DNA of 46,693 bases from Elusimicrobiota bacterium (GTDB lineage: Bacteria; Elusimicrobiota; Elusimicrobia; UBA1565): contig JACRDU010000148.1 of assembly GCA_016218495.1 (NCBI GenBank), positions 1 to 46,693 of the forward strand. Reading direction: 5' to 3'. The notes beneath the pieces were generated by a model, which worked only from the letters and a program-made list of their open reading frames with translations, was not told the DNA's origin and made no database searches. The translations under genes and the position numbers were made by a program. Shown here in pieces: positions 213 to 23,200 of this stretch (positions are counted from its first letter, which is position 1; each line of letters begins with the position of its first letter).

Positions 213-3200
213 ATGCCCCTCTGGAGACGGGTCCTCGCGGCCTCGTTGGCCGCCGTGCTGACGGCTCTCGCTCCCGGCCTCGAGCCGTACCGCCTGTTCG
301 CCCAGGTCAAGGGCGCCGTCGAAGTGCCGGTCACGGTGGGGACCCCCGGGCTGGGCCAGACGGGGGCCGGGACGGTCGGCGCGAACCTGTCCCTCTCCGC
401 CCCGCCGTCCCTCGTCTCTCCGACGGGGCTGGCGTCCACTTTGCCCAACCCCGCGGCCCTAAGCCCCGCATTGACGCCCAAGGTCGGAGCGGGAGCGTCC
501 GCGGCTGCCGCGCCTTCGGCCGCGGCCATGCCCGCCGCGGCCGCCGCGGCGGCTCCGGCGAAGGCCCTGCCCCCGGTCCGATCTCCGGCGCCATCCCGCG
601 CCTCGTCAAAGACCTCCGGCCGCAGCGCGCCGGAGGCGGCCCCTGAGCGAGCCGGAAAGCCGGCGCCGCGGGCCGCCGGTGCGGCGAAAACCCTGGACTC
701 CATCTCCAAGGGGGTCGACGCGGGCGCCGCCCTCGACTCGCTCTACTCGGGCGCCGCCGCCCGGACGGCCTCCGACGCCTTCCCCGCCGCGGCCCGGACC
801 GGGTCCCTCAACGCCGCGCGCCCGGCCCTCGGCCGGGGCGCCGCATCCCAGCCCGCCGCCGAGGAGCCGGCCGTCGGCTTCCTGAAGAAGGAGGCCCCGG
901 CCCAGGCCCCGCAGGGCTTCTTCGGCCGGCTGCGCTCCAAGCTCTCCGCCTTCTCCGGCTTCAACCGCTCCGAGAAGGCCTACATCCTCGGCCAGGCCAC
1001 CTTCCTCTTCGCCATCAGCATCTACCTGGCCTCGATGCCCCTGCTCGTGCAGGCCCTGACCGGCGACGCGGCGATGACCGGCGTGGCCCGCGCCGTTCAC
1101 TATTGGACCTTCGCCGGGGCCTCGCTGCTCTCGGGCGGCATCGTGGCGCGTACGCCGATGAAGCGCATCCTGGTCGGGGCGGCCGTCTCGCGCGCCCTCA
1201 TCTTCGGCTCCATCGGATTCCTGGCTCTGGTCGGCGGCTTGCCCTGGGCGGGCTTCCTGGGCCTGGTCGGGATCAACGCCGTCATCGTGTCGATGAACCA
1301 CCTGGTCGACATCGACACCGACGGGGCCCGCAAGGTCTTCACCTCGGACAAGAAGATCGAGCAGGGCGGCTACCTCTACGACCTCATCTACTACGGGATG
1401 ATGCTGGTCGTCCCGCCGCTGATCGGCCTCCCGATGGACTGGCTGGACGCCACCTACGGCCCCGGCATCGGAGCGGCGGTGGGGTTCGCGATGTTCGCGG
1501 CGGTGATGAGCGCCGCGGCGTTCATCTACGCCAAGTTCGTCAAGGTGAAGGGCAACGGCGAGGCCCTCCTCGACGCCCTGGGACCCTTGGGCCGCGGGCT
1601 GCGCATGCTCCGTTCGGGCTGGGAGATCCTGCGCGAGGCCCCGCGGCGCAACTGGGAGACGATGAAGCTCCTGTGGCGCAACAAGCGCATCCTGTCGCGC
1701 TCAGCGATGGCCACGGCGGAGAATTTCGTCGAGGACGCGCTGTTCGCCGTCGTCCTGCCCACCTTCGCCATCGACATCCTCAAGTCCGGGGCCTCGGGCA
1801 ACGGCCTGCTGCTCTCGGCGGTCACGCTGGGGGGCCTGATCGCCTCGACGTTCCTGATGAAGTACGCCCAGAAGATCCAGGGGCGCATCGGCACCTACCA
1901 GTTCCTCGCCTACCTGACCATCGGGGCCTCGCTGGCCTTCATCCCTTCGGCCCTGCTCTGGTCCGCCCCTTCCCTGCTCCTCGCGGTGCCGGCCGTCGTG
2001 CTGATGAAGATGCTCTACCAGCCGCTGCGCTCGCGCATGCGGGCGCTCCTGCAGGTCGAGATCAAGAACGACCCCGAGGCTTCCAAGCGCGGGGAGGACA
2101 TCAACGCCCTGATGACGGTCTTCGAGGTCCTCGCCGCCGGCGCGGGCGGCCTGGCCTTCGCCTGGCTCTTCGGCCACGCGGGGGCGGGAACGCCGCTCCA
2201 CGACCTCCTCGGCGACGGCGCGCCGATGAAGATGGTCACGCTGGCCATGATGGGCATCTCGGCGGTCTACCTGGGAGGGCTCAAGCTGCTCGGCTCCACC
2301 CTGCCGCGCTGGCTGCGCTGGCGCTCGCCCAAGGGCGCCGAGCGGACCGAGCTCGACAAGCTGGCCAAGAACCTGGCCAAGCTGGGCCTCCCCCCGGCCA
2401 AGACGGTGCGGGTGGCGAACCCGGTCTCGGCCGACCGGCCGACGGTGGCCATCCTGGCCCCCGCCTCCGTGTACAAGCTCTCCATCGCCCGCGAGGGCGG
2501 GCGCCAGGCCCCCGGCGACGTCCACCTGGCCCTGGACGCCTCCTGGCTGGTCTCGGAGCGCCGGCCCGACGGCCGGACCCGCATCCTGATGAAGAAGGGC
2601 CTGTTCTTCGACGCCGAAGGCCAGGCCTGGGTGGCGGAGTACGACCAGCCGCGCGTGGTGCGCTACTTCGGCAACTTCTTCACTTTGGGCTCCAACGACC
2701 GCGCCGACGGGGTCCCGTTCGAGAAGGGCCTCGACACGCCGATGACGAGCTCGGTGGAGCTGGAGGCCGTCACCAACGACAAGCTCCTCACGCGCGTCTT
2801 CATGGCGGAGAAGGGCGTGGGGGTGCCCGCCACCCTGGCCTTCCTCCTCCACGGCCATCCCATGGCCTGGCGGACCGGCTTCGACCGCAACGGGGTGACG
2901 CTGGCCCAGCTCGGCGCCCGGGTGCGCGCCCAGGTGGAGGAGTTCCTCGCCGCCAACGCCGGGCGCCTCGGCGGCGAGGTCGTGGTGAAGCCCTCGGGCC
3001 CGCAATGGCACTCGAGCCGCGGGGTGAAGTTCTTCAAGACCTCCGACATCGACGCGATCGCCGCCCACGTCATGGCCCTCTCGCAGGACGGCATGATGAC
3101 CCCCGACGGCGCCGTCCTCATCGACGAGCGCATCACGCCTCCGCCGCTCTACTTCCGCGTCAAGGAAGGCGGCGCGCGCGCGCCGCCCGCCGACGGCTAT

Positions 3201-5060
3201 TCCGGCAAGGGCCTGCGCATGGGCGCCGACGTGTCGCTGGACTTCCTTTCGGCCGCGGAGGCGAAGACCGCCGCCGCGGCGCCGGCCAAGCGCGACTGGA
3301 ACATGCGCCTGTTCGCCCAGCGCACCCCGTGGGGCGGCACGGTCAACTCGGCCGTCTTCGTGCGCGCCGGCCCCTGGGGCAAGCCCACGGTCGCCGAGCC
3401 CGGCGGCCCGAACGAGGCGGGGAAGGCCGACCCCGAGGACGCCGCCGTGGTGATGCCCTTCGAGGACGTGATCAAGGCCCTGCAGGACCAGCACGGCCTG
3501 CTCAAGACCCCCGCCGAGGCGGCGGCCTTCCGCGAGGACCTCGAGAGGACGGCGCGCGGGACCCTCGAGTCGCTCTGGGAGAACGAGGCCCAGCTGCGCG
3601 CCGACGGGAGGATCCCCGCCCAGGCCCAGACCGACTTCGTCGGCCTCGACGTGATGCTCGACTGGAAGGGCGGCAAGCTCATCCCGAAGGTCATCGAGAT
3701 CAACGACCACGACTCGGGCGGGCAGATGCAGCTCGACAGCTTCTATCCGGAGCGGGCCGGCGAGCACTCGCGCGCCTGGGTGGCGACGATGCTGCAGCGC
3801 GCCCGCCGCGACGCCCTCAAGGGCAAGCGCATCCTGATGGTGGGCGGCGGCTACTACGGCAAGCGCTTCATCTTCGAGCGGGCCAAGGAGCTGGGCGTCA
3901 AGATCACCCTGGTCGACCGCCCGGGCTCCCTGATGGCCGACCTGGTGGACCGCTATATCCCCGTGGAGACCCTCGACAAGGACGGCGCCGCCGCGGCCGC
4001 CGAGTCGGCCCTGGCCGAGGCCGGCCTGACCGGAAAATTCGACGGCATCACCTCGTTCTGGGAGGACGATATCCCGCTGACCGCCGAGCTGGGAGAGAAG
4101 CTGGGCCTGCCCTTCCTGCCGGTCGCCGGGGCCAAGGCGGCGCGCGACAAGCGCGCCACGCGCGAGGTGATGGCGGCGGCCGGCCTGCCTGCCCCGCGCT
4201 TCGCGCCGGTGCGCTCCGACGAAGAGCTCGAGGCGGCCGTCGCGTCGGTGGGATTCCCCGCCATCATGAAGCCGGCCTCCGGCGCGGAGGCCAAGTTCGT
4301 CAAGGAGGTGCGCTCCGCCGCCGAGGCCCGCGCCGCCTGGAAGTCGCTCTCCGCGGAGGTGGCGCGCGAGGCGGCCACCGACGGCGCCTTCTCGGCCCAG
4401 ATCGGCCTGGTGATGGAGCAGTACCTCGAGGGCGACGAGGTCGATGTGGACGTGGTGATGCAGGGCGGCAAGCCGGTGTTCACCTCGGTCACCGACAACT
4501 GGCCGACCAAGCGCCCCTTCTTCCTCGCCACCGGCTCCAGCCTGCCCAGCCACCTGCCGTCTGCCGGCCAGGCCGAGCTGGCCAAGCTGGCCCACGACTC
4601 CGCCGCCGCCCTCAAGCTGGACCGCGGGGTGCTGCACATCGAGATGAAGCTCACCCCCGAGGGTCCGCGGGTCATCGAGGTCAACGCGCGCATGGGCGGC
4701 GTCTATGTCCGGGACTGGGTGAAGGACGTCTGGGGGGTGGACCTCGTCGAGGAGGGGCTGATGGCCGCGGCGGACATCCCCGGCGCGCCCTACAAGTCCC
4801 CGACCCCCCTGACCCACCTGGAGGGGCGCTTCCTGATTCCGGAGCGCTCGGGCACCCTCAAGGCCCTCGACGGCTCCGCCGCCGAGGCGGACCCGTCGCT
4901 CTACGAGCTGCGCAAGATGATCCGCCCGGGGGCCGCGGTGCGCGTCCCGCCGGAGGGCAACGACCGGGTGGGGATGGTCACGGCCCGGGGGCGCAGCGCG
5001 GCCGAGGCCGAGGCCGCCCTCAAGCGCGTCGAAGCGAAGGTCCGGATGGACGTGGACTAG
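213..5060 (+). CDS. MFS-like transporter fused to tandem ATP-grasp ligase modules
   Basis: A 1615-residue protein if started at the ATG at 213, chosen because it opens directly with a basic, hydrophobic signal-like stretch (MPLWRRVLAASLAAVLTALA). An in-frame ATG at 159 is possible. Layout from 213: signal-like helix, Ala/Pro-rich linker to about 235, a polytopic MFS-like region about 250-700, then a soluble half. The first ATP-grasp-like unit has VVVKPSGPQW near 925 and the metal-site motif KVIEINDHDSGG near 1160. The second has a Rossmann start (KRILMVGGGYYGKRF, near 1205), MKPASGAEAK, EQYLEGDEVDVDV and RVIEVNARMGG near 1487. The E-x-N metal-ligand pair is present in both units, so both may be active. 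The doubled layout resembles carnosine synthase and other ATP-dependent peptide ligases. I infer synthesis of an amide-bonded product coupled to transport; the substrate is unknown. The stop overlaps the convergent lipoprotein gene by 4 bases. Confidence 0.85.
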   Translation: MPLWRRVLAASLAAVLTALAPGLEPYRLFAQVKGAVEVPVTVGTPGLGQTGAGTVGANLSLSAPPSLVSPTGLASTLPNPAALSPALTPKVGAGASAAAAPSAAAMPAAAAAAAPAKALPPVRSPAPSRASSKTSGRSAPEAAPERAGKPAPRAAGAAKTLDSISKGVDAGAALDSLYSGAAARTASDAFPAAARTGSLNAARPALGRGAASQPAAEEPAVGFLKKEAPAQAPQGFFGRLRSKLSAFSGFNRSEKAYILGQATFLFAISIYLASMPLLVQALTGDAAMTGVARAVHYWTFAGASLLSGGIVARTPMKRILVGAAVSRALIFGSIGFLALVGGLPWAGFLGLVGINAVIVSMNHLVDIDTDGARKVFTSDKKIEQGGYLYDLIYYGMMLVVPPLIGLPMDWLDATYGPGIGAAVGFAMFAAVMSAAAFIYAKFVKVKGNGEALLDALGPLGRGLRMLRSGWEILREAPRRNWETMKLLWRNKRILSRSAMATAENFVEDALFAVVLPTFAIDILKSGASGNGLLLSAVTLGGLIASTFLMKYAQKIQGRIGTYQFLAYLTIGASLAFIPSALLWSAPSLLLAVPAVVLMKMLYQPLRSRMRALLQVEIKNDPEASKRGEDINALMTVFEVLAAGAGGLAFAWLFGHAGAGTPLHDLLGDGAPMKMVTLAMMGISAVYLGGLKLLGSTLPRWLRWRSPKGAERTELDKLAKNLAKLGLPPAKTVRVANPVSADRPTVAILAPASVYKLSIAREGGRQAPGDVHLALDASWLVSERRPDGRTRILMKKGLFFDAEGQAWVAEYDQPRVVRYFGNFFTLGSNDRADGVPFEKGLDTPMTSSVELEAVTNDKLLTRVFMAEKGVGVPATLAFLLHGHPMAWRTGFDRNGVTLAQLGARVRAQVEEFLAANAGRLGGEVVVKPSGPQWHSSRGVKFFKTSDIDAIAAHVMALSQDGMMTPDGAVLIDERITPPPLYFRVKEGGARAPPADGYSGKGLRMGADVSLDFLSAAEAKTAAAAPAKRDWNMRLFAQRTPWGGTVNSAVFVRAGPWGKPTVAEPGGPNEAGKADPEDAAVVMPFEDVIKALQDQHGLLKTPAEAAAFREDLERTARGTLESLWENEAQLRADGRIPAQAQTDFVGLDVMLDWKGGKLIPKVIEINDHDSGGQMQLDSFYPERAGEHSRAWVATMLQRARRDALKGKRILMVGGGYYGKRFIFERAKELGVKITLVDRPGSLMADLVDRYIPVETLDKDGAAAAAESALAEAGLTGKFDGITSFWEDDIPLTAELGEKLGLPFLPVAGAKAARDKRATREVMAAAGLPAPRFAPVRSDEELEAAVASVGFPAIMKPASGAEAKFVKEVRSAAEARAAWKSLSAEVAREAATDGAFSAQIGLVMEQYLEGDEVDVDVVMQGGKPVFTSVTDNWPTKRPFFLATGSSLPSHLPSAGQAELAKLAHDSAAALKLDRGVLHIEMKLTPEGPRVIEVNARMGGVYVRDWVKDVWGVDLVEEGLMAAADIPGAPYKSPTPLTHLEGRFLIPERSGTLKALDGSAAEADPSLYELRKMIRPGAAVRVPPEGNDRVGMVTARGRSAAEAEAALKRVEAKVRMDVD

Positions 5061-5710
5061 GGCTTCAGGCTCGGCCCGCCGGGGCCGTCCTTGAGCGCCC
5101 GGAAGGAGTTGACCAGGTTGTTGAACCGGTCTTCGTACTTGTCGAACCCGGCGCGCGTCGCGGGATAGATCAGCACGTAGAAGCCCGTGTCCATGGGCAC
5201 GACCACATAGGCGTGCTGGCGCAGCACCACGGTCTTCTTGGAGCCGGCCTCCTCGGACACGCCGAAGCGCATCGTGCCGGGGACCTCCATCGGCGCGAGC
5301 ACCACGAAATGCGTGGCCTCCCAGCCGCTGACCGAGATGGGATGCGGCTCGACCTTCAGCGCGCGGTCGGGGCCGTAGAGGTCGCGCAGGGTGCGCTCGA
5401 CGAATTCGCGGGGAGTGGAGTAGGCCTCCACCGCCCCGTCGGGCAGGGTCCGGACGCGGTCCTTGCCGTACCAGCGCGCCTGCAGCGTGGGGACGCCGCG
5501 GTGGAACTCGGGGTCGAAGGGGCCGACGAAGGTGTAGCTGTAGTAGTCGTCGCCCTGGCGGTCCAGATAGACGCTCCAGCCCCAGGGGACCTGGGCCGTG
5601 AAGTCGCCGGACTCGGAGTTGTACTTGATGTACTTCGGGGGCTTGCAGGCCGCCGTAAAGGGCAGGGCCGACAGGGCGGCGAGCACGCAGAGCTTCTTGA
5701 ACCCATTCAT
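5057..5710 (-). CDS. Predicted lipoprotein of unknown function
   Basis: A 217-residue protein with a lipoprotein signal: MNGFKKL, a hydrophobic core, and lipobox FTAAC with the acylated Cys at 22. The mature part has alternating polar and aromatic residues (FTAQVPWGWSVYLD, YYSYTFVGPFDP, FYVLIYPATRAGFDKYEDRF). It ends in a FNNLVNSFRALK segment like the tail of small lipoproteins of the PsbP/DUF1795 kind, which I mention only as a resemblance. It is probably anchored in a membrane facing the periplasm. Its last 4 bases overlap the end of the upstream convergent fusion gene (shared CTAG). A good sigma-70-type promoter lies just before the ATG and leaves almost no leader. Function is not known. 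Confidence 0.8.
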   Translation of the reverse strand: MNGFKKLCVLAALSALPFTAACKPPKYIKYNSESGDFTAQVPWGWSVYLDRQGDDYYSYTFVGPFDPEFHRGVPTLQARWYGKDRVRTLPDGAVEAYSTPREFVERTLRDLYGPDRALKVEPHPISVSGWEATHFVVLAPMEVPGTMRFGVSEEAGSKKTVVLRQHAYVVVPMDTGFYVLIYPATRAGFDKYEDRFNNLVNSFRALKDGPGGPSLKP

Positions 5711-7434: not shown

Positions 7435-9762
7435 TCAGCGGGACGCGGGGCCGACGGGGACGCCGCGGTCGGCCTCGAGCGAGGCCCGGATCATCTCGGC
7501 GAGCAGCCGCGCCTCGGCCGAGGTCCCGCGCCCGGCGGCGCGCTCTTCGGCGAGCAGCTTCGCGTAGGAGTCCTGCAGGCCGGCGAGCTCCTCGGCGCCG
7601 ACCAGGTTCAGCACCATGTCGGCGGCGCCCTTGAGCGGCAGGATGTGGGTCTTCTCGTTCTCGAGGATGCGCGCCCAGCCCTTGAGGTTCTCCCCGATGG
7701 GCTTGCCGCGGGCGACCCGGTCGCGGGCCAGGCGGCGGGCCAGGCGCACGACGGCGGGGGCGTCGAGGTAGACGTTGAGCGACTCGTGGCCGCGCGCGGC
7801 GGCGAGCAGGCCCGGGTGCGAGGCGAAGATGGAGTCGACGACGAGCACCTCGTCGGGGCCCAGCTGCATGTACTCGCCCGAGTCGAAGCGCGTCACGCCC
7901 GAGGCCATGTCGTGGACCGGGAGCTCGACGCGGCCGCCGGCCAGCAGGGTCCTGATGTCGGCCGCCACGCGCTCGAGCAGCATGGCGTCGGGGCGGTCGA
8001 AGTCGGGCTGGCCCTTGGCGTCCACCGGGACCTCGGGGCGGCTCTTGAAGTAGCGGTCGACCTCCAGCGAGCGGATGCGGCCGCCCAGGCCGGCCTCGAG
8101 GCTCTTGGCCAAGGTCGACTTGCCGGCGGCGGTGGGGGCCTCGAGGAAGATGACGCTGCGGCCCGGCAGGGCCTTGGCCCGCGCCGTCATCGCGTCGAGC
8201 TGGGGCTTGGCCTCGGGGCCGGCGAAGGAGGAGAGGTCGGCGCCGTCGAAGGCCGGGGCCAGCTCCGCCTTCTCGGCGGCAGGGGCGGCTTCGCGCCCCT
8301 TGCCTTCGGCGCCGCGGCCGCGCGAGACGAGGGAGAGAACCTTGTCGACGAGCCGGACGATCGGGCCGACCAAGGCGTTGGTGACGCGCGGCGCGTAGAT
8401 CTGGCCCAGCACGATGCCGGCCGTCAGGATGCCGATGCCCGCGTTCATGGCCCAGCGCAGGTCGCCGGTGACCAGCGCGGTGAAGAGGTGCAGCAGGCTG
8501 CCGCCGGCCACCAGGGCGGGATAGAGCGGCGCGACGCCCTCGGCGACGCGCTTCTCGGTCTCCCAGACGCGGAAGTTGTGCCGGATCTGCGGGAAGTTGA
8601 GCACCCACAGGAGCCCCATCGCGCCGGTGAAGGAGAGGTCGAGCCAGGCCTTGAGGGGCATCAGGGCCTGGGTCGCGATGAGCGGCAGCGGCGCCAGCGA
8701 GGCCGCCACGGTCAGGGCCGACGCCTTCATCTCGGCCTTGTCGCGCTTGTACCAGTTGATCTGCCCGATGACGATGGCGCTCTCGAGCACGCCGGCCACG
8801 TTGGCCAGGTTCCACCAGATGCTGGCGCCCTGGCCGATCGAGACGACCGACAGCAGGGTGGCCGCGCCGAACCAGATGAGCGGGCTGGCTATGACCAGGT
8901 CCTTCACGGTGGCCTTGCCGCCCTTGAAGTTCTTGACGATCTGCGGGATGCCGATGACGGTCAGCGCCGCCGAGCCCAGGGCGGCGACGATTCCGGCGTG
9001 CGGCACGAGGAAGGGGGCGGCGGCCGCGGCAGTGACGAGGCCCAGCGCCAGGGCGGTCTTGCGCACCGCGGGGCGAGACCAGAATGAGGCTTGCGCGGGC
9101 GCCGCCGATGGGGCGACGGGCTCGGCCTTCGCCTGCGCCGCCGGGGCCGACGGGGCCAAGAGGCCGGAGGCGGCGCGGCCCGTGAGCTCCGCGCGCACGG
9201 CGGCGGCGGGGGCGGCCACATCGCCCGAGCCGGAGATGAGGCGGCGGTTGAGCAGGGCTTCGAAGCTGGAGGCGGCCGAGCCCTTCGCGCCTTCGACCGG
9301 CATTTCGGAGGCCTGGGCGGAGAGCTCGAGGCCTTCCTTCTTCGCGGCCTCGCGCTGGGCGGCGGCTTCGGCTTTCGCGGGGGTCGCCCCGACGGCCGGG
9401 GCGCGCAGGACGGGGGAGGCAAAGAGGGGCGCGGCGGCCCGGGCCTGGGCCAAAGGCGCCGCCGTGACGGAGGCGGCGGCCGCCGCCTGGGCTGAAGCCG
9501 CCCGGGGCGACGCCGTCGGAGAGGCCAGCGCCGGCAAGGTCGGCAGCACGGAGGGCGAGGCCAGGCTCGCATTGAAGCCGGAGAGGGTCGGGACGGAGAG
9601 GGGCGCCATGGACCCGACGGGGACCGGGGCGACGCCCACGGAGACGACGGGAGCCTGGACCTGGGCGCGGACGTTGTACTGGGCCAGGACTTCGGAGACC
9701 CCGGGCCCCATGGCCCAGAGGGCTTGGAGGGTAGCTATCAAGGACGCCGCGGTCTTCTTCAT
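7435..9762 (-). CDS. PQ-loop-like membrane segment fused to a uridine-kinase-like domain
   Basis: 775 residues from the ATG at 9762, preferred over the ATG at 9774 because GAGAGG lies 4 bases before it. Layout: signal-like helix (MKKTAASLIATLQALWAMG...AQYN), Ala/Pro-rich linker to about 225, a multi-pass region about 228-450 with two PQ-loop-like motifs (IGIPQIVKNFK near 270, LNFPQIRHNFR near 395), and a C-terminal P-loop kinase domain about 525-775. The kinase part shows Walker A EAPTAAGKST near 540, DRYF after it, VVDSIFASHPG in the position of the uridine kinase VEGI loop, and RLARRLARDRVARGK as a lid. PQ-loop proteins include SWEET-type transporters and lysosomal amino-acid carriers. I infer transport coupled to phosphorylation of the imported molecule, but the substrate is not shown by the sequence. 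Confidence 0.82.
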   Translation of the reverse strand: MKKTAASLIATLQALWAMGPGVSEVLAQYNVRAQVQAPVVSVGVAPVPVGSMAPLSVPTLSGFNASLASPSVLPTLPALASPTASPRAASAQAAAAASVTAAPLAQARAAAPLFASPVLRAPAVGATPAKAEAAAQREAAKKEGLELSAQASEMPVEGAKGSAASSFEALLNRRLISGSGDVAAPAAAVRAELTGRAASGLLAPSAPAAQAKAEPVAPSAAPAQASFWSRPAVRKTALALGLVTAAAAAPFLVPHAGIVAALGSAALTVIGIPQIVKNFKGGKATVKDLVIASPLIWFGAATLLSVVSIGQGASIWWNLANVAGVLESAIVIGQINWYKRDKAEMKASALTVAASLAPLPLIATQALMPLKAWLDLSFTGAMGLLWVLNFPQIRHNFRVWETEKRVAEGVAPLYPALVAGGSLLHLFTALVTGDLRWAMNAGIGILTAGIVLGQIYAPRVTNALVGPIVRLVDKVLSLVSRGRGAEGKGREAAPAAEKAELAPAFDGADLSSFAGPEAKPQLDAMTARAKALPGRSVIFLEAPTAAGKSTLAKSLEAGLGGRIRSLEVDRYFKSRPEVPVDAKGQPDFDRPDAMLLERVAADIRTLLAGGRVELPVHDMASGVTRFDSGEYMQLGPDEVLVVDSIFASHPGLLAAARGHESLNVYLDAPAVVRLARRLARDRVARGKPIGENLKGWARILENEKTHILPLKGAADMVLNLVGAEELAGLQDSYAKLLAEERAAGRGTSAEARLLAEMIRASLEADRGVPVGPASR

Positions 9763-11206: not shown

Positions 11207-14200
11207 ATGCACTCCCTGGGGTTGGCGCGCCGAGACCTGACCCTCTCCCTGAGCCTCTGGGGGCTCCTTGCCATATCCGCCTCGGCTCAGGTCCCGGGCA
11301 TCCCGGGCACCCCCGTCGGCGTCGTGGGGTCCACCGGCTCCATCGTCTGGACCTGGACGCCGGCCACCGACGCGACGAGCTACGAGGTGGCTCTCGGGAC
11401 CAAGACCACCGAGATCATCGCCACGCCGACCAGCACGTCGACCTCCATCACCGGGATGGGCCCCAACTCGGCGTCGGCGGTCGTCGTCCGCGGCTCGAAC
11501 ACCTTCGGGTCGGGCTCTTTCTCGGGGTGGCCCGGGTTCAAGAACACCTGGGCCAATCCCCCCCTGTCCCCCTCGGTGGACAACGTGACCGGGACGGACC
11601 TCACGCTGTACTGGGACGCGAACGGAAACCCGGGCGACACCGTCTTCGAAGTCTACACCTCCCTTGACGACTCCAGCTTCAACCCCGCCGGGAGCGGCAC
11701 CCCCGCCTCCGCCTTCGTCAGCGGGCTCGCCCCCGCCACCACCTACTATCTGCGCGTACGGGCCTACAACAACGATTCCGTCCCCACCGGATACTCCGCC
11801 AGCATCTCCACCCGGACCAGGGGGACGCCGTCCACGGCCCCGGACACCCCTGTCGGCCTCGCGCTGTCGACGAGCGACGTCCACTGGTCGTGGACCTCCG
11901 TGTCCGGGGCGACCAGCTACAGCGTGCGCCTGGCCTCGGACGCCACCCAGGTCCTGGCCTCGCCGACGACGACGAACGTGACCCTGCACGGCTATCAGCC
12001 CAACGGCGAATCCTCCGTCATCGTCCGCGCGGTGAACGGCGAGGGCGCGGGCCCGCCCTCGAACTCCTCCACCAAGTTCTCTTCGGCGGCGGTCCCCAAC
12101 GCCCTCACCGCAGCCAACATGACCTCGGTGTCCTTCGAGCTTTCCTGGAACGCGAACGCGAACCGGACCGGGACCGTGTTCGAGATACAACGCTCCACCG
12201 ACGACGCCTCGTACGCCACCATCACGACGCAGACCGGGGTCTCGTTCGCGATGTACGGGCTCACGCCCGTGACGACATACTACCTGCGCGTGCGCGCCGC
12301 CAACGACAACGGCGTCCAGAGCGCCTTCTCGGCGACCTACTCCACCGTGACGAACCTGACGGGGGGCGGGACCGTGCCGGGGATGCCCGGGACCCCGGTG
12401 CCCAACGTCGTCTCCTACTTCGAGATCGAGTGGTCCTGGGCCCCCGCCCTCGACGCCACCAACTACGAGCTCTACATAGCCACCAACGGACAGCCCATAG
12501 CCTCCCTGTCCGGCACCTCGGTGACCATCTACGGCTTCGCTCCCAACTCCCTCTCCTCGGTCACCGTTCGCGGGATCAACGGCGTGGGCTACGGCCCGGC
12601 ATCCCCGGGCGCATACGCCTACACGTTCGCCGGCGTCCCGGCGGCCCTGGATGTGACGGCGGTCTCTTCCGATACCGTCTCCCTGACATGGAACGCCAGC
12701 GGGAACCCGGCCGGCACCATCTTCGAGCTGCAGAAGGCCACCGACGGGACCTCCTTCGCCGCGCACTCCTCCTATACCCAGACCTCGGTCAACCTGACCT
12801 TCCTGGCGCCGGGCACGACCTACCAGTTCCGCGTCCGGGCCTACAACGACGACGGCATCAACACGGCCTTCTCGAACACCGCCTCGACCCGGACCAACGA
12901 GACCCTGCCGGGCATACCCGGGGCGCCGAGCGCCGTAGTCCAATCGACCGGGGACATCAAATGGTCCTGGACGGCGGCGCCCAGGGCGGCCGAATACGCC
13001 GTGCTGGACGCGCTGGACCCCGTCGTCCCGCTGGCCGTAGTGTCCTTCACCAGCGTCACGCTCTCCGGGCTCTCCCCGAACCAGCGCCAGACCATCGTCA
13101 TCGTCGGCGCCAACCAGTACGGCAACGGGCCCGCCTCCTCCACCGGGAGCGCGCACAGCTTCGCCAAGCCGCCCACGGCCCTGAGCGTCGTCGGCGTCAC
13201 CTCCATCTACGCCAGCCTCTCCTGGAACGCCAACGGAAACTCGATAGAGACCGTCTATGAGCTGCAGAAATCCACCGACGACCTGACCTATGCCACCCAT
13301 TCCACCTATTCGGTCACCGGTTCGACCGTCGCGGGGTTGAGCCCGTCGTCGACGTATTATTTCAAGGCGCGCGCCATCAACGGAGACCTCGTTGCGACCG
13401 CCTTCTCAGGCACCGTCTCCACCGTCACCACCGCCACCGGGGGCGTCCCTCCGCCCGGAGCGCCCTCCACGCCGGTCCCGGTGGTGCTGTCGAGCGCCGA
13501 CGTCTCCTGGTCCTGGCTGGAGGTCGCCAGCGCGACGAGCTACCGGGTCTACCTATCCAGCAAGCCCTCCGAGCTCATCGCCACTCCCCCGACCTACTAC
13601 TTCACCCTGTCGGGCCGCGGGCCCAACGAGCTCGTCGACATCATCGTATCGGCCGTCAACGAGACCGGCGAGGGGCCGGCCTCCCCGTCGGCGTCCTCCT
13701 ACACCTTCGCCGCACCGCCCAGCGGCCTGAGCGGGTCCTCGGTGACCACCACCACGGTCGACCTGTTCTGGAGCGGCGGCGGGAACCCGGCGGGGACGGT
13801 CTTCGAGCTCCAGAAGTCCAGCGACGACCTCGGCTTCGCCACTCACTCCACCTACACCGCGCTGGCGGCCTCCGTCACGGGGCTGACGGTGGGGGCCACC
13901 TACTACTTCAAGGTCCGGGCCTATAACCAGGATGCCGTCGCCACGGGCTTCTCGACGACCTATTCCACGCGCACGGCCGTCATCCTGCCCGGCGCCCCCG
14001 GCACCCCCACGCCTACCGTCCTGTCGACCGGGTCTTTGTCCTGGACCTGGACGGCGGCGCTCGACGCGTCTAGCTACCAGGTCTTCTCGGCCTCCTCCCC
14101 CGCGACGCTCCTGGCCGCGCCGACCTCCAACTCGGTCTCCTTCGCAGGGCTGGGGGCCAACACCCCCTTCGGCATCCGCATCCGGGGCGTCAACGGCGGC

Positions 14201-17200
14201 GGCAACGGGCCGTTGACGGCCGCCGTCACCGCCTACACCTTCGCGGCCCCCCCGACCGCGCTCGCCGTCTCCGGCGTCACCTCGCTGTACGCCAGCTTGA
14301 ATTGGAGCGCGGGCGTCAACCCCGCTGGGACGGTCTTCGAGCTGCAGCGGTCCTTGGACGGCACCGTCTTTACCACGCATTCCACCTACACCGTGGCGGC
14401 CGCCACGGCCTCCGGCTTGAGCGCCTCGACCAACTATTGGTTCCGGGTCCGCGCCTTCAACGACGACCTGACGGCGACCGCCTTCTCGAACACGGCGGCG
14501 ACCGCCACCGACGCCACCGGAGGCACCCCTCCGCCCGGGGCGGCCGGCGCCCCGTCGGCCGTGCAGCTCTCGACGGGCCACGCGGCCTGGTCCTGGACCC
14601 CGGCCTCGGACGCCACCGGCTACCGGGTCTATCTGGCCACCAAGCCGGCGGAGCAGCTGGGCTCCTCCCCCTCGAGCGGGTTCACCCAGGGCGGCCTCGG
14701 TCCCAACGAGCCCGCCGGAATCGTCGTCATCCCCTTCAACGCCATCGACGACGGCCCCGTCTCCTCCTCGGGTTCCGCGCGCACCTGGGCGCGGCCTCCC
14801 ACCACCCTCGGCCTGACCTCGGTCTCCTCGACCTCCATCGGCCTGTCCTGGAACGCGGACGGCAACCCGACGGGGACCGTCTTCGAGCTGCAGATGTCCG
14901 TCGACGGCGGGGCCTTCGCGGCCGAGTCGACCACGACCCTGACCACGGCCTTGGCGGCGAACCTGCTGCCCGGCACCACCTATGACCTGAAGGTGCGCGC
15001 CTACAACGCGGCCGCGGTGGCGACGGCCTTCTCCGGGACTGTCTCGACCGTGACGCGGGCGGCCTCCCCCGGCCTCCCCGGGACCCCGACCCAGGCGGCC
15101 GTCTCCACGAACTCCGTCTCATGGACCTGGACGCCGGCCTCCTCCGCTACGAGCTACAAGGTGGCGCGGGCCTCGAACACCGCCGACGTCATCGGGCCCC
15201 CCGCCGGCCCGGCCGTCGTCTTCAACGGCCTGGGGCCGAACGCGCCCTCCGCCATCGTCGTGCGCGGCGTGAACTCCACCGGCGACGGCCCCTTGTCCGC
15301 GGCGGCGACGGTCTACTCGCTGGCCAAGCCGCCCGCCGCCCTGACGGTGGTCTCGGTGACCTCGGCCGCCGTCAACGCCTCCTGGAGCGCCGACGGCGAC
15401 CCGGCCGGCACGGTCTTCGAGGTCCAGGTGGCCACCGACGGAACGTCCTTCCTCCCCTATTCGACCGTGACCACCGCCGGCGTGTCGGTGACGAGCCTCC
15501 AGCCCGCCACGACCTACGACATCCGCGTCCGCGCCTACAACGACGACGCCGTCGCCACCATCTTCGCGGGCCCGGTCTCTACGCGGACCCTGTTCTCGTT
15601 CCCCGGCCTGACCGGGAACCCGGTCGGCACGACCCTCTCCACGGCGGACGTGCGCTGGGCGTGGACGGCGTCCTCGAACGCCGTCTCCTACGAGGTACGC
15701 CTCGCCTCCGACACCTCCCAGCTCCTCGCCTCCCCCACGACCACCTCCGTCGTCCTCGCAGGCTACGCCCCCAACAGCCGCTCCTATGTCGTCGTGCGCG
15801 GCGTCAACCCCGCCGGCTACGGCCCCTATTCCGCCTCCGCCTCCGCCTACACCTACGCCAAGCCCCCCACCACCCTCTCCGGCCTCTCCGTCTCCTCCGC
15901 CGCCGTCGACCTCGTCTGGGGCGCCGCCGGCAACGCCCCCGGCACCCTCTTCGAGGTCTCCGCCGCCACCGACGGCACCTCCTTCGTCCCCCGCTCCACC
16001 TCCGACGTCCCCACCGTCTCCATCGGCGGCCTCCTCGCCCAGACCCCCTACCAGCTGCGCGTGCGCGCCGCCAACGGCGACGGCGTGGCCACCGCCTACT
16101 CCAACACCGCCTCCACCCAGACCACCCCGCCCTACCCCGGCCTCCCCGGCGCCCCCGCCGGCACCGCCCTCTCCACCGCCGACGTCTCCTGGTCCTGGAC
16201 CTCCGCCTCCGACGCCATCAGCTACCAGGTCTTCCTCGCCACCAAGACCTCCGAGCTCCGCGCCTCCCCCTCCGGCAACTCCGTCACCCTCTCAGGCTTG
16301 GGCCCCGACGACCTCTCCTCCATCGTCGTGCGCGGCGTCAACGCCACCGGCAACGGACCCCTCTCCGCCGCCGGCTCCCGCCGCACCCTCGCCCTGCCGC
16401 CCTCCACCCTCGCCGTCGTCTCCGTCTCCTCCGCCTCCGTCGACCTCTCCTGGAACGCCGCCGGCAACCCCGCCTCCACCTCCTTCCAGGTCCACGGCTC
16501 CACCGACGGCTCCACCTACGCCCTCCTCAAGACCACCCAGGGCTCCGCCGCCTCCGTCGGCGCCCTCGACGCCTCCACCGCCTTCCAGTTCAAGCTCCGC
16601 GCCGTCAACGGCGACGGCGCCCTCACCGCCTACTCCAACACCGTCTCCACCCAGACCGGACCGCCCTATCCCGGCCTCCCCGGCACGCCCACGCCCACCG
16701 TCCTCTCCACCGGCGGCGTCTCCTGGTCCTGGACGGCCTCCTCCGCCGCCGTCAGCTACCAGGTCTTCCTCGCCTCCAAGACCGCCGAGCTCCTCGCCTC
16801 CCCCGCCGGCACCTCCGCCACCCTCATCGGATTTACCCCCAACGACACCTCCGCCATCGTAGTCCGCGGCGTCAACGCCCTCGGCACGGGACCCTACTCC
16901 GCGCCCGCCTCCACCTACACCTTCGCCGCCGCCCCGGCCTCCCTCGCCGTCGTCTCCGCCGCCCAGACCTCCGTCACCCTCTCCTGGGACACCTCCGCCA
17001 ACCCCGCCGGCACCACCTTCGAGCTCGAGTCCTCGCTCGACGACTCCATCTTCTCGCCCGCCGCCAGCGTCACCGCCTCGCCGGCCGCCATCCCGTCGCT
17101 CTCCGCCTTCACCACCTACTACTTCAGGGCCCGCGCCCGTAACCTCGCCTCCATCCCCACCGCCTTCTCCAACACCGCCTCCACCCGGACCGCCCCCGCC

Positions 17201-20200
17201 CTCCCCGGCGCCCCCGGCACACCCACACCCACCGTCCTCTCCACTGGCGGCGTCTCCTGGTCCTGGACCTCCGCCTCCGCCGCCACCAGCTACCAGGTCG
17301 TCCTGGCCTCCGACAACGCCCAGGTCATCGCCTCCCCGACCGCCAACTCCCTCACCCTCAACGGCTACCCCCCCAACGCCCTCTCCGCCATCGCCGTGCG
17401 CGGCGTCAACGCCACCGGCAACGGGCCCTTCTCCGCCTCCAGCGCCGCCTACACCTTCGCGTTGCCCCCCTCCGCCCTCAGCGTCTCCGGCGTCACCTCC
17501 ATCTGGGCCAGCCTCAACTGGGACGGCGGCCTCAACCCCGCAGGCACCCGCTTCAAGGTCGACAAATCCCTCGACAACGTCCTCTTCACCGCCCACTCCA
17601 CCTACTCCGTCGCCGCCGCCACCGTCGCCGGCCTCTCCCTCTCCACCACCTATTACTTCAGGGTCGCCGCCCTCAACGACGACCTCGTCGCCACCGCCTA
17701 CTCCAACACCGCCTCCACCGTCACCGACGCCTCCGGCGGCACCCCGCCCCCGGGCCCCGCCGGCACCCCCTCCCCCGTCGTCCTCTCCACCGGCGACGTC
17801 TCCTGGTCCTGGGGGGCCGCGGCCAACGCCGCCAGCTACAAGGTCCTCCTCGCCTCCAAGACCTCCGAGGTCCTCGCCTCCCCGGCCGGCACCTCCGTCG
17901 TCCTCTCCGGCTACGGCCCCAACTCCCTCTCCTCCCTCATCGTGCGCGGCTCCAACGCCGTCGACGACGGGCCCCCCTCCGCCGCCGCCTCCGCCTACAC
18001 CTGGGCCATGCCCCCAGGCACCCTCTCTCTGGTCAGCGTGGGCTCCGCCTCCGCCAGCCTCTCCTGGACCTCCGGCGGCAACCCCGCCGGCACCCGCTTC
18101 GACGTCGAAACCTCCCTCGACGGCGGCGCCTTCTCCCTCTCCAGCGCCACCCTCGCCACCACCGCCCTCCTCCCCTCCCTCTCCGCAAGCACCACCTACG
18201 GCTTCCGCGTGCGCACCCTCAACGGCGACTCCGTCACCACCACCTACTCCAACGAGCTCACCACCCGCACCTTCCCCCCGCTGCCCGGCGCCCCCGGCAC
18301 CCCGACGGGCACGGCCCTCTCCACCGCCGACGTCTCCTGGTCCTGGACCTCCGCCTCCGACGCCATCAGCTACCAGGTCTTCCTCGCCACCAAGACCGCC
18401 GAGCTGCTCGGCGCGCCGACCTCCCCCGCCTTCACATTCTCCGGCCTCGGCGTCAACGCCCTCTCCGCCGTCGTCGTGCGCGCCGTCAACGCCACCGGCG
18501 ACGGACCCCTCAGCTCCCCCGCCACCGCCTACTCCGCCGCGCTGGACCCCGCCTCCCTCGCACTCGTCGCCGTCGGCTCCGACTCCGTCTCCGTCTCCTG
18601 GAACGCCGGCGCCAACCCGCCCCTCACCCGCTTCCAGGTCCAGGCCGCCACCGACGCCGTCTCCTTCCAGACCGCCGCCACCAGCGCCGCCTCCTCCGCC
18701 CTCCTCACAGGGCTCCTCAGCTCCACCACCTACGACCTCAAGGTCCGCGCCCTCAACGAGGACGCCGCACCCTCGGGCTTCTCCAACACCGTCTCCACCC
18801 TCACCAGGCCCGCCGCCCCGCCCGCCCCCGGCACCCCCTCCCCCGTCGTCCTCTCCACAGGCGACGTCGCCTGGTCCTGGACCCCCGCCGCCACCGCCAC
18901 GGGCTACCAGGTCTTCCTCGCCACCAAGACCGCCGAGCTCCTCGCCTCTCCCACCGCCGCCTCCGTCACCCTGCGCGGCTTCGGCCCCAACTCCCTCTCA
19001 GGCATCGTCGTCCGCGCCCTCAACCAGACCGGCTCCGGACCCCTCAGCTCCCCGGCCTATGCCTACTCCTTCGCCATGGAACCCACGGCGTTCTCCGTCG
19101 TCTCGGTGACCTCCGCCGCCATACAGCTGTCCTGGAGCGGCGCCGGCAACCCCGCCGTCACCGTCTTCGAAATCGAAGCGGGCCCCGACGGGGTCTCTTA
19201 TGCCCCCTTCTCCACGACGACGGCCGTCTCTTTGCTCGCCAACGACCTGCCGCCGCTGACGACCTACTGGTTCCGGCTGCGCGCCTCCAACGGCGACGCC
19301 GTCGGCACCGCCTTCGCGGCCGCCGTGACGACCCAGACCCTGCCCGCCCCGCCCGGGCCCACCGGGACCCCGGTCGCCGTGGTCGCCTCCACGGCCGACA
19401 TCGCCTGGTCCTGGACGCCGGGCCTGGGCGCCGTCAGCTACCAGGTCTACCGGGCGTCGAACACGGCCGACCTCCTGGCCTCCCCGGCGGCGCCGTCCTT
19501 CTCGCCTCCGGGGCTGGGGCCCAACCAGCCCTCGGGCATCGTCGTGCGCTCCGTCAACTCCGTCGGGACCAGCGCCCTCTCCGCCTCCGCCACCGCCTAC
19601 ACCCACGCGGCCGTCCCGACCGCGTTCGGACTGGTGAGCGTCACGTCGGTCTCGATCGCCCTCTCGTGGAACGCGGCCGGCAACCCCGGCGGGACCGTCT
19701 TCGAGCTGCAGGGCTCCACCGACGGCGTGGGCTTCGCGCCGTACTCGACGGCGACGGCCTCCGCGCTGGCCTTGAACTACCTCTCCCCCTCGGCCACCTA
19801 CGCCTTCCGCCTGCGCGCCGCGAACGCCGACGCCGTCGCCACCGCCTTCACCTCCATCGTCTCGACCCGCACGCTCCCGCCGCCCCCCGGAGCCCCGGGG
19901 ACCCCCGCGGGCGTGGCCCTCTCCACCGCCGACGTCTCCTGGTCCTGGGCGCCGGCCCCCGCGGCCTCCTCGTACCGGGTGGTGCGGGCGTCGGACCCCG
20001 CCCAGATCCTGGCCGTCCCCTCCGGCAACTCCGTCGTCCTCTCCGGCCTGCCGCCCAACGCCCTCTCCGGCGTGGCGGTGCAGGCGGTCAACGAGACGGG
20101 GACCAGCTCGCTGAGCGCGGCCGCCACCGCCTACACCCTGGCGTCGCCCCCCTCCGCCCTGAACGTGACGGCGGCCAGCTCGGTATCGGTCAGCGTGGCG

Positions 20201-23200
20201 TGGAACGCCGGGACGAACGCCGCGGGCACCGTCTTCGAAGCGCAGATTTCCACCGACGGCGTCTCCTTCGTCGCCGGCGGCACCACGACGGCCTCCTCCA
20301 TCCTGGTCGCCTCCCTGCAGTCGGGCTCCAGCTACTTCCTGCAGGTCCGGGCGCTCAACGGAGACGGGCTGGCCACCGCTTTCTCGAACACCGTCTCCAC
20401 ACTGACCGCGCTGCCCGCCCCGCTGGCCCCGGGCACCCCGGCGGGCACGGCGCTCTCCACCGGGGGCGTCTCCTGGACCTGGTCCCCGGCGACGGCCGCG
20501 GTCTCCTACGAGCTGCTCATCGCCTCGCAGACCGGCACCATCCTCGCCGCCGTGCCGTCTACCTCCGCCGTGCTGACCGGCCTCGGGCCGAACTCGGTGT
20601 CCTCGGTCGTCGTGCGCGGCGTCAACGCCACCGGTGGCGGCATCCTCTCCGCGCCGGGCGCCGTCTATACCCTCGCCGCCGTCCCCACCGGCGCCTCCGT
20701 CGTCTCGGTCGGTTCCGCCTCGGCCGTCATCTCCTGGAGCGCGGCCGGCAATCCGGCGGGGACGGTCTTCAAGGCGCAGGTCTCCTATGACGGGGGGCTC
20801 TTCTTCGACGGCTCCTCGGGGACGGCGACGACCCAGCTCATGAGCTTCCTGAGCCCGATGAGCACCTATTCCTTCCAGGTGGCGGCGGTGAACGGCGACG
20901 GCATCCTCTCCTCCTATTCCACCTCCGTGACGACGCGGACGATGCCGCCGGCCCCCACGGCGCCGTCCGTCCCGTCGGCCACCGTGCTGTCCACCGGAGG
21001 GGTCTCCTGGACCTGGGGGGCCGAGGCCCTGTCCGACTCCTACCAGCTCGTGCTGGCCACCAAGACCTCCGAGGTCGTCGCGTCGGTGAGCGCCACGACG
21101 GCCGTCCTCACGGGCTTCGGACCGAACTCGGCCTCCGCGGTGCGGGTGCGCGGCGTCAACGCGACGGGCCCCGGCGACCTCTCCCCGCCCGCCACCGCCT
21201 ACACCTTCGCCGTCGACCCGGCCTCCCTCGTCATCGCCGCGGTCAGCTCCGTCTCGGCCTCGCTGAGCTGGAGCGCCAACGGGAACCCCGCCGGGACCGT
21301 CTACCGCGTCGAGGCCTCCTACGACGGGGGGCTCTTCTTCCTCGCCTCGACGACCACGGCCTCCGCGGCCGCCGCCGCCCCGCTCTCCCCGTCGAGCACC
21401 TACGCCTTCCGCATCGGGGCGCTCAACGGCGACGGGGTCGCTTCCGGCTACGCCGTCTCCGGCACGACGCGCACCCTCCCGCCGCCGCCATCGGCCCCCG
21501 GCACGCCGGGGGCCGCCGTGCTCTCCACTGGCGCCGTCCAGTGGGCCTGGAGCCCCTCCGACTCGGCGGACTATTACGAAGTGGTCCGTGCCTCCAAGAC
21601 CTCCGAGGTCCTGGGGACCGCGTCCGGGACCTCCTTGGTCCTGTCCATCTACGCCCCCAACATCCCCTCGGCCGTGGCCGTGCGGGGCGTGAACGTGACG
21701 GGGCCCGGCCCGCTGTCGGCCGCCGCTACCGCCTACACCTTCGCGAACCCGCCCGACACGCTGGCCCTGGTCTCGGTCACCTCCGCCGCGGTCTCCTTGT
21801 CCTGGAACGGCGGCGGAAACCCGGCCGGAACGCGCTTCGAGGTCCAGGCCTCCACCGACGGTTCGACCTTCGCCGCGCTGGCCAGCACCCCTGGCTCGTC
21901 TTATTCCGCCGCCGGACTGGCCTATTCGACGACCTACGCCTTCCAGGTCCGGGCCCTCAACGAGTCCGACCTGGGCACCGCTTTCAGCAACAGCGTCTCC
22001 ACCATGACGCTGCCGCCCCCGCCCGGCGTCCCGGGGACCCCGGCGGCGGCCGTCCTCTCCACCGGCAGCCTCACCTGGTCCTGGACGCCGGCCTCCTCCG
22101 CCCTCGCCTATGAGGTCCGCCGCGCCTCGGACACCACCCAGCTGCTCGCCTCACTGACGACGACGTCGCTGACTTTGGCCGGCCTCCCCCCCAACTCCGC
22201 CTCGGCCATCGTCGTGCTCGGCGTGAACAACACGGGCAGCGGCCCGCTGTCGGCGGCCGCCACCGCCTACACCTTCGCGCAGGCCCCGTCCTCCCTGGCC
22301 CTGGCCGCCGTCTCATCCTCCGCGGTCTCCGTGACCTGGTCCGCCGCCGGCAACCCCGCCGGGACGGTCTTCGAGCTGCAGACCTCCGTCTCGGGTGGGG
22401 CGTTCGCCGCCGCCTCCACGACCACCGCCTCGGCGCTGACCCTGTCCGGCCTCCTCCCCTCGACGTCCTACGAGCTGCGCGTCGCGGCCGCCAACGGCGA
22501 CGCGGTGATGACGGCGTTCTCCGCCTCGGTGGCCACGACGACCTTCCCGCCGCTGCCCGCCGTCCCCGGTTCGCTGGCGGGCACGGCCCTCTCCACCGCC
22601 TCGGTCGCCTGGTCGTGGGCGGCCGCGGCGGACGCCGTCGGCTACGAGCTCTTCGCCGCCTCGGGCTCGGCCTCACCCCTGGCGGCCGGCCCGTCCACCT
22701 CGGCCGTGCTCTCGGGCTTCGGGCCCAACGCCCCTTCCGGCGTGTCCGTGCGCGGCGTGAACCCCTCGGGTCCCGGCCCCCTGTCGGCCCCCGCCACCGT
22801 CTACACCCTGGCCGAGGACCCCGGAGCCCTGACGGTGCTCTCCGTCGGCTCCACGACGGCCGTCGTGTCCTGGAGCGGCGGCGCCAACCCGGCGGGGACG
22901 CTCTACAACCTCGAGGTCGCCGTGGACGCCGGGCCCTTCGTCTCGGCCGCTACGACGACGGCGGCGGGGCTGTCCGTGGAAGCCCTCAGCCCCGACACGA
23001 CCTACGCCTTCCGCGTGCGCGCCCTCAACGCCGACCTGGTCGCCACCGCCTACAGCGCCGGCGCCTCCACGCGGACGCTCCCCGCCCTCCCCGGCGTCCC
23101 CGGCGTCCCCGCCGGGACGGCGGTCGGCGTGTCGTCCATCCAGTGGACCTGGGCGGCGGCCAGCGACGCGGCCGCCTACCGGCTCTATGCCGCCTCCGCC

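Follow-up and report, generated by a model that had tools for sequence, protein, structure and literature searches.

Organization of the locus

In this study, we analyzed a whole contig of 46,693 nucleotides (C122, hereafter the window) from a 4.15-Mb Elusimicrobiota genome of 165 contigs (G000). ORF analysis of the window revealed one uninterrupted frame of 1615 codons, whose features are listed in Table 1; an upstream ATG at position 159 is a second possible start, and homologues favored position 213. The preliminary description of this DNA had recognized a single intact chain with a signal-like helix, an Ala/Pro linker, a transporter and two ATP-grasp units, which our analysis confirmed, and had also considered a frameshift or misassembly joining two genes. 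The genome is metagenome-assembled, which speaks for such an error, but the same layout recurs at 37-84% identity in many independent Elusimicrobiota assemblies. This conserved layout rules out an artefact, whether by frameshift, chimera, misassembly or chance joining of separate genes, with a probability that is close to certainty.

The leader of the chain is MPLWRRVLAASLAAVLTALAPGLEPYRLFA, in which the helix ends with L-F-A at residue 30 and Q follows. An A-Q end is also found in the signal peptides of plain secreted proteins in the window, such as an FN3 protein, and by pattern and by comparison with these secreted proteins the signal peptide of the leader has an SPase I-like end. No hydrophobic segment could be found between the leader and the first transmembrane helix (residues 31-245). 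In the same window, positions 11207-25048 (+) encode a 4613-aa fibronectin-type repeat-like protein with 2 Cys, whose signal ends in SASAQ and which is probably secreted.

Table 1. Features of the transporter-ligase gene and of nearby genes in the window
Feature	Positions	Strand	Evidence or remarks
Whole gene: leader, linker, MFS, ATP-grasp 1, ATP-grasp 2 (LAL)	213..5060	+	1615 aa, 0 Cys
Leader, residues 1-30: basic n-region, hydrophobic helix, PG turn, ...YRLFA before Q	213..302	+	presequence profile match C122:222-512, E 1e-14
Ala/Pro-rich linker, residues 31-245	303..947	+	sequence
MFS carrier, 12 TM helices (first 263-279, last 672-688), K/R-rich loops on N/C-terminal side	948..2357	+	TIGR00900, family-averaged hydropathy
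Middle ATP-grasp (RimK/Ddl-fold), residues 716-1190; K926 in VKPSG, D1146 in GLDVM, E1162-x-N1164	2358..3782	+	motif alignment, AlphaFold model, structure searches
L-amino-acid ligase module (BL00235/BacD type), residues 1191-1615; K1353, H1475, E1477, E1489-x-N1491-x-R1493, LAL_C2 domain	3783..5057	+	Pfam, PDB search, structure and motif alignment
Small lipoprotein-like protein gene, convergent	5057..5710	-	similar frames in 11 compared homologue loci, some duplicate copies of one contig
Second class member: same leader and linker, PQ-loop membrane domain, uridine-kinase-like domain, intact Walker A	7435..9762	-	775 aa, 0 Cys

Two ATP-grasp modules

The C-terminal unit matched three Pfam families above their cut-offs, ATPgrasp_N (PF18130), ATP-grasp_4 (PF13535) and LAL_C2 (PF18603), and its best solved relative was the L-amino-acid ligase BL00235 (PDB 3vot, E 3.1e-31). 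A model of both ligase units (pLDDT 89, pTM 0.90) could be superimposed on 3vot_A over 397 aligned residues (VIA Z 40.3, rmsd 2.8). The nucleotide-site Lys, H-x-E and E-x-N-x-R either matched in the alignment with 3vot or were retained by almost every one of 19 homologues. Thus, the C-terminal module has the fold of BL00235 and of BacD/YwfE (3vmm and 3wnz, Z about 34-35) and has the three Pfam families and the catalytic residues in common with them; however, these relatives are free soluble enzymes, whereas the module described here shares its chain with a leader, a carrier and a second ATP-grasp, and lacks Cys.

For the middle unit, the PDB sequence search gave no convincing match and no Pfam family was found above cut-off. 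ATPgrasp_ST (PF14397) was matched below threshold by 11 of the 19 homologues (best E 4.2e-5), and against the 213-5060 chain it reached only E 0.13 and 11.9 bits (cut-off 31.4). In a structure search with a 900-residue model of the two ligases, the LAL half took up the list of matches; a model of the middle unit by itself was therefore built and used as the query. The AlphaFold model of this unit alone, built with 19 homologues (pLDDT 88, pTM 0.87), was most similar to RimK 5zct_C (Z 22.1, rmsd 3.4, 284 aligned), followed by LysX/ArgX (Z 21), DcsG (20.7) and Ddl (about 19-20; Foldseek E 6.5e-10), and VKPSG and E-x-N of the unit were invariant or nearly so among the homologues, with a nucleotide-site Lys and the metal motif recognized in 19 of 19. 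Judging from these fold matches and near-invariant motifs, the middle unit is predicted to be a second ATP-grasp ligase module kept under constraint. It is like RimK, LysX/ArgX, DcsG and Ddl in fold and in its E-x-N/K motifs (Z about 19-22), but differs from them by approximately 180 extra residues (486 versus about 290-300) and by having no significant sequence match.

Structure prediction of both units, which the preliminary description had proposed, yielded an ATP-grasp fold for each. Its assignment of ATP-grasp to the two soluble units is therefore borne out, by the Pfam and 3vot matches at the C-terminus and by the AlphaFold model and structure search in the middle. The E-x-N metal motifs and nucleotide-site lysines that it had noticed in both halves proved to be conserved, with few exceptions, in the 19 homologues.

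MFS carrier

The MFS-like transporter proposed earlier was upheld by two observations. First, NCBIfam TIGR00900 matched residues 259-618 with E 1.3e-11, which did not reach the curated cut-off. Second, family-averaged hydropathy revealed 12 helices arranged as 6+6 with a long central loop. Pfam MFS_1 did not reach E<=1 with the 213-5060 chain and did so in homologues; PF07690 was above cut-off in the homologue L054. No convincing relative was returned by the PDB sequence search with the MFS unit. In family averages, the K/R sums were 3.6-11.7 in loops on the side of the N- and C-termini compared with 0-1.2 on the opposite side; family averages were also used for the other leader-bearing carriers, since single-sequence helix counts were too noisy to assign sides.

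Distribution and gene neighbourhood

Full or partial homologues were present in the same genus, family, order and class, and the carrier, the middle unit and the ligase occurred in one frame in at least 11 Elusimicrobiota genomes besides G000. A single genome-collection scan returned 21 loci, all of them titled Elusimicrobia/Elusimicrobiota or plain 'bacterium', and the related named genomes were Elusimicrobia/Elusimicrobiota MAGs, many of which came from groundwater. Two relatives (L067 and L167) carry the leader and both ligases without a carrier in the chain, so the ligases may not always need it. In three others (L052, L054 and L064) the carrier is of a different MFS type, and a FemAB/ATE-like domain is added, at the C-terminus of L052 and L054 and at the N-terminus of L064 (a weak match, E 0.015-0.025 in L052), which suggests that a further aminoacyl-transfer step might be performed by these relatives.

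A reversed fusion, leader-LAL-MFS, is encoded elsewhere in G000 (L068:7436-11122, -) and has relatives in six other loci, with 0-1 Cys each. Therefore, a LAL is tied to an MFS carrier in two orders, which points to these functions having been coupled independently. An L-amino-acid ligase is also combined with a second ATP-grasp in a separate family of about 820 aa (L029-L030 and L032-L038); this family is without leader and has normal Cys, and its second ATP-grasp contains a D-Ala-D-Ala-ligase-like domain in both members scanned (L029 and L031).

The search for homologues and their neighbours that had been suggested at the outset thus found the layout across genera, families and a class. Conserved neighbours across homologue loci included an M28 peptidase, a PrcB-like protein, a nuclease-like protein and unknowns, and in the loci compared they formed no obvious pathway that could serve as a guide to the substrate.

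A leader-bearing class of chains

The signal-like helix and Ala/Pro linker had been treated as details of this one chain. Their presence was confirmed, but they are a shared element of many Cys-free chains in the genome. In G000, a sample of which was covered by the census, the leader heads at least 25 chains, including carriers, an ABC exporter, a kinase, a nuclease, LonB, MoxR, an amylase and proteases. A scan of 440 kb, partly picked around MFS genes, revealed leader-bearing MFS carriers, a double ABC exporter, PLD, an S41 peptidase and MoxR. One class member lies in the window itself (Table 1), and by eye an apparent extra helix precedes its seven PQ-loop helices.

A presequence profile built from 13 leaders matched 24 places in G000 (e.g. 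L092, L107, L109 and L154-L163), gave 11 and 14 matches in two genomes of the same genus and was found in 34 of the 57 relatives overall. Eleven chains were detected by the profile alone, among them an S8 peptidase with HEAT repeats, an alpha-amylase, a debranching enzyme/glucanotransferase and LonB; the form of their leaders and their Cys content (6 Cys in 10,909 residues, with 118 expected) are the out-of-sample support of the profile. Further fusions also belong to this class. At L109:2051-12256 (+), a 3.4-kaa leader-bearing chain contains BatA, three VWA matches, TPR and DUF58 and is directly followed by a leader-bearing MoxR gene, and at L166:168-2948 (+) a leader recognized by eye precedes an endonuclease/exonuclease/phosphatase and a TLC (ATP/ADP-transporter-like) domain in a 927-aa frame with 0 Cys. 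The ATP-dependent units of the class keep their Walker motifs or ATP-grasp sites. No description of a leader-bearing, Cys-free class could be found in the literature searched.

The most extreme relative was observed in G057, a genome from another family of the class, in which 17,755 codons at C5:8767-62031 (L110-L113) form a single open frame with 54% G+C, a steady codon-position pattern and 6 Cys. It opens with the same kind of leader, ...TTPGLDFYQVFAQ, followed by PLD, M48, S8, glycosyltransferase, DUF885, MscS-like, PDDEXK, M50, AAA, LAL, M14, ClpB-type AAA, DUF5117/DUF4953 and M48 units. Domains that stand behind separate leaders in one genome thus stand behind a single leader in another, which suggests that the domains of the class share a destination. 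Elusimicrobiota are rich in proteins over 5000 aa without COG assignment, according to the portion of a published report considered here (PMC11573180); the leader, the exclusion of Cys and the transporter-ligase fusion do not appear in that portion.

Cysteine exclusion and the side of the membrane

The leader-bearing chains contained 10 Cys in 17,502 residues (0.06%), compared with 1.08% in other gene frames (596 kb of G000). The difference held for individual domains. Among 21 MFS units of G000 (20 Pfam matches and the carrier described here), all seven with a leader were Cys-free and all 14 without a leader contained Cys. Similarly, no Cys was present in 6,386 residues of the LAL domain in 15 leader-class homologues, whereas 45 were counted in 4,562 residues of 11 homologues without leader. 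Twelve other long Cys-poor frames were found in G000, several of which look secreted or RND-type by their N-termini, although not all of them could be assigned. In this respect the 213-5060 chain resembles exported proteins of its genome, and obligate anaerobes are described as tending to keep Cys out of the proteins that they export (PMC12453122).

Together, the leader and the exclusion of Cys from the whole chain suggest routing through or into an extracytoplasmic place. In the strictest form of this explanation, the leader acts as a genuine Sec signal, and the whole chain works outside the cytosol of the bacterium itself, in an ATP-containing lumen or inside a prey or host cell, with the carrier entering the membrane from inside. 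We consider this possible, yet doubtful. The A-x-A-Q-like end of the leader, shared with plain secreted proteins, agrees with it, as do the total absence of Cys from the 1615 residues and from all 15 leader-class LAL domains compared, the clean division of MFS units by leader, the secreted or RND-type appearance of several other Cys-poor frames, the tendency of anaerobes mentioned above, the leader-bearing ligases that have no carrier at all, and the TLC-type transporter genes of G000 and its relatives. However, in two independent families the canonical positive-inside pattern puts the ligases on the cis side, and a literature search on whether these bacteria are predatory or host-associated gave broad matches only and yielded no data on their lifestyle. 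In addition, ATP is not expected in the periplasm, and we know of no Sec route across the inner membrane for 12-helix proteins.

The two kinds of evidence are in direct conflict. A signal peptide with no helix before the carrier would place the linker outside, whereas the charge pattern of the carrier would place the linker and ligases inside. K/R-rich loops on the N-terminal side speak against an exported linker in both families, including the reversed one, in which the ligase placed inside directly follows the leader. Thus, charge pattern and need for ATP suggest that the ligases face a cytosol-like side. A second explanation is then that the leader is an untranslocated membrane anchor or targeting helix, that the ligases face the cytosol of the cell itself and that the exclusion of Cys has another cause. 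This is quite possible, if slightly on the doubtful side. Besides the charge pattern of both families, it accommodates ATP-dependent domains with intact sites, and the apparent extra helix of the PQ-loop neighbour fits a linker in cis. On the other hand, it has to face the fact that every domain is Cys-free while ligases and MFS units without leader have ordinary Cys, and that the amylase, the S8 and S41 peptidases and the PLD with this leader resemble enzymes that are exported.

Proposed function

The 213-5060 product fairly probably unites an amino-acid ligase and a carrier in one membrane-bound chain, whose ligase activity, product type, direction and membrane side we infer. This reading is based on the intact chain, the two predicted folds, the conserved active sites, the 12 helices, the conserved fusion, the leader and the lack of Cys. 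Like BL00235 and BacD, the C-terminal module would use ATP to activate the carboxylate of an amino acid as an acyl phosphate and would join it to a second amino acid or an amine. The middle ATP-grasp, with its RimK/DcsG/Ddl fold, could add a second ATP-driven amide bond and thereby extend or cap the product, and the attached 12-helix carrier would move product or substrate across the membrane, efflux of the product being more likely. The earlier proposal, in which ligase and carrier are covalently linked at the membrane and a peptide or amide, most likely a small one, is made or handled there, thus remains the best reading. It had likened the doubled ATP-grasp region to carnosine synthase; among the relatives compared here, the closest were BL00235/BacD for the C-terminal unit and RimK/LysX/DcsG/Ddl for the middle unit.

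Alternatively, the carrier might work in the direction of import and supply the ligases with an amino acid or peptide, which they would capture by ligation. The neighbouring PQ-loop/uridine-kinase chain does have a form of uptake plus trapping, and the G000 chain that pairs a nuclease with a TLC-type transporter points the same way; however, the best family match of the carrier, TIGR00900, is named a proton antiporter subfamily, and we regard import as rather unlikely.

Two known systems are informative for the ligase-carrier reading. In the bacilysin operon, the BacD ligase and the BacE exporter are encoded together. Ligase and MFS exporter serve one dipeptide there, as we propose here, but as separate genes rather than one chain. 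MprF is a fused lipid aminoacyl transferase and flippase, and follows the same principle as the 213-5060 chain, a covalent link between synthase and transporter; it differs in having other folds and in being tRNA-dependent instead of ATP-grasp. The preliminary description knew of no system with this layout, and our literature search for a transporter-ligase combination likewise found none. The chain therefore appears to combine known parts in a new way, and its function is probably ligation together with transport.

With ligase and carrier permanently joined, one protein would couple the formation of peptide bonds to transport across the membrane, and the fusion hints that this almost uncultured phylum makes peptides or amides not yet known. 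The common leader and total loss of Cys further raise a question of cell organization, as ATP-driven enzymes bear the marks of exported proteins. We put forward very tentatively, as a rather unlikely reading, that in Elusimicrobiota of this lineage the signal-like helix, PG turn, A-Q end and Pro-rich linker form an N-terminal element dedicated to routing, which sends a Cys-free second proteome to an ATP-containing place outside their own cytosol, either a private compartment or another cell, and that the transporter-ligase is one member of it. If so, many carriers would belong to this second proteome along with ATP-dependent ligases, a kinase and AAA proteases, and some relatives would make a large part of it as one giant chain.
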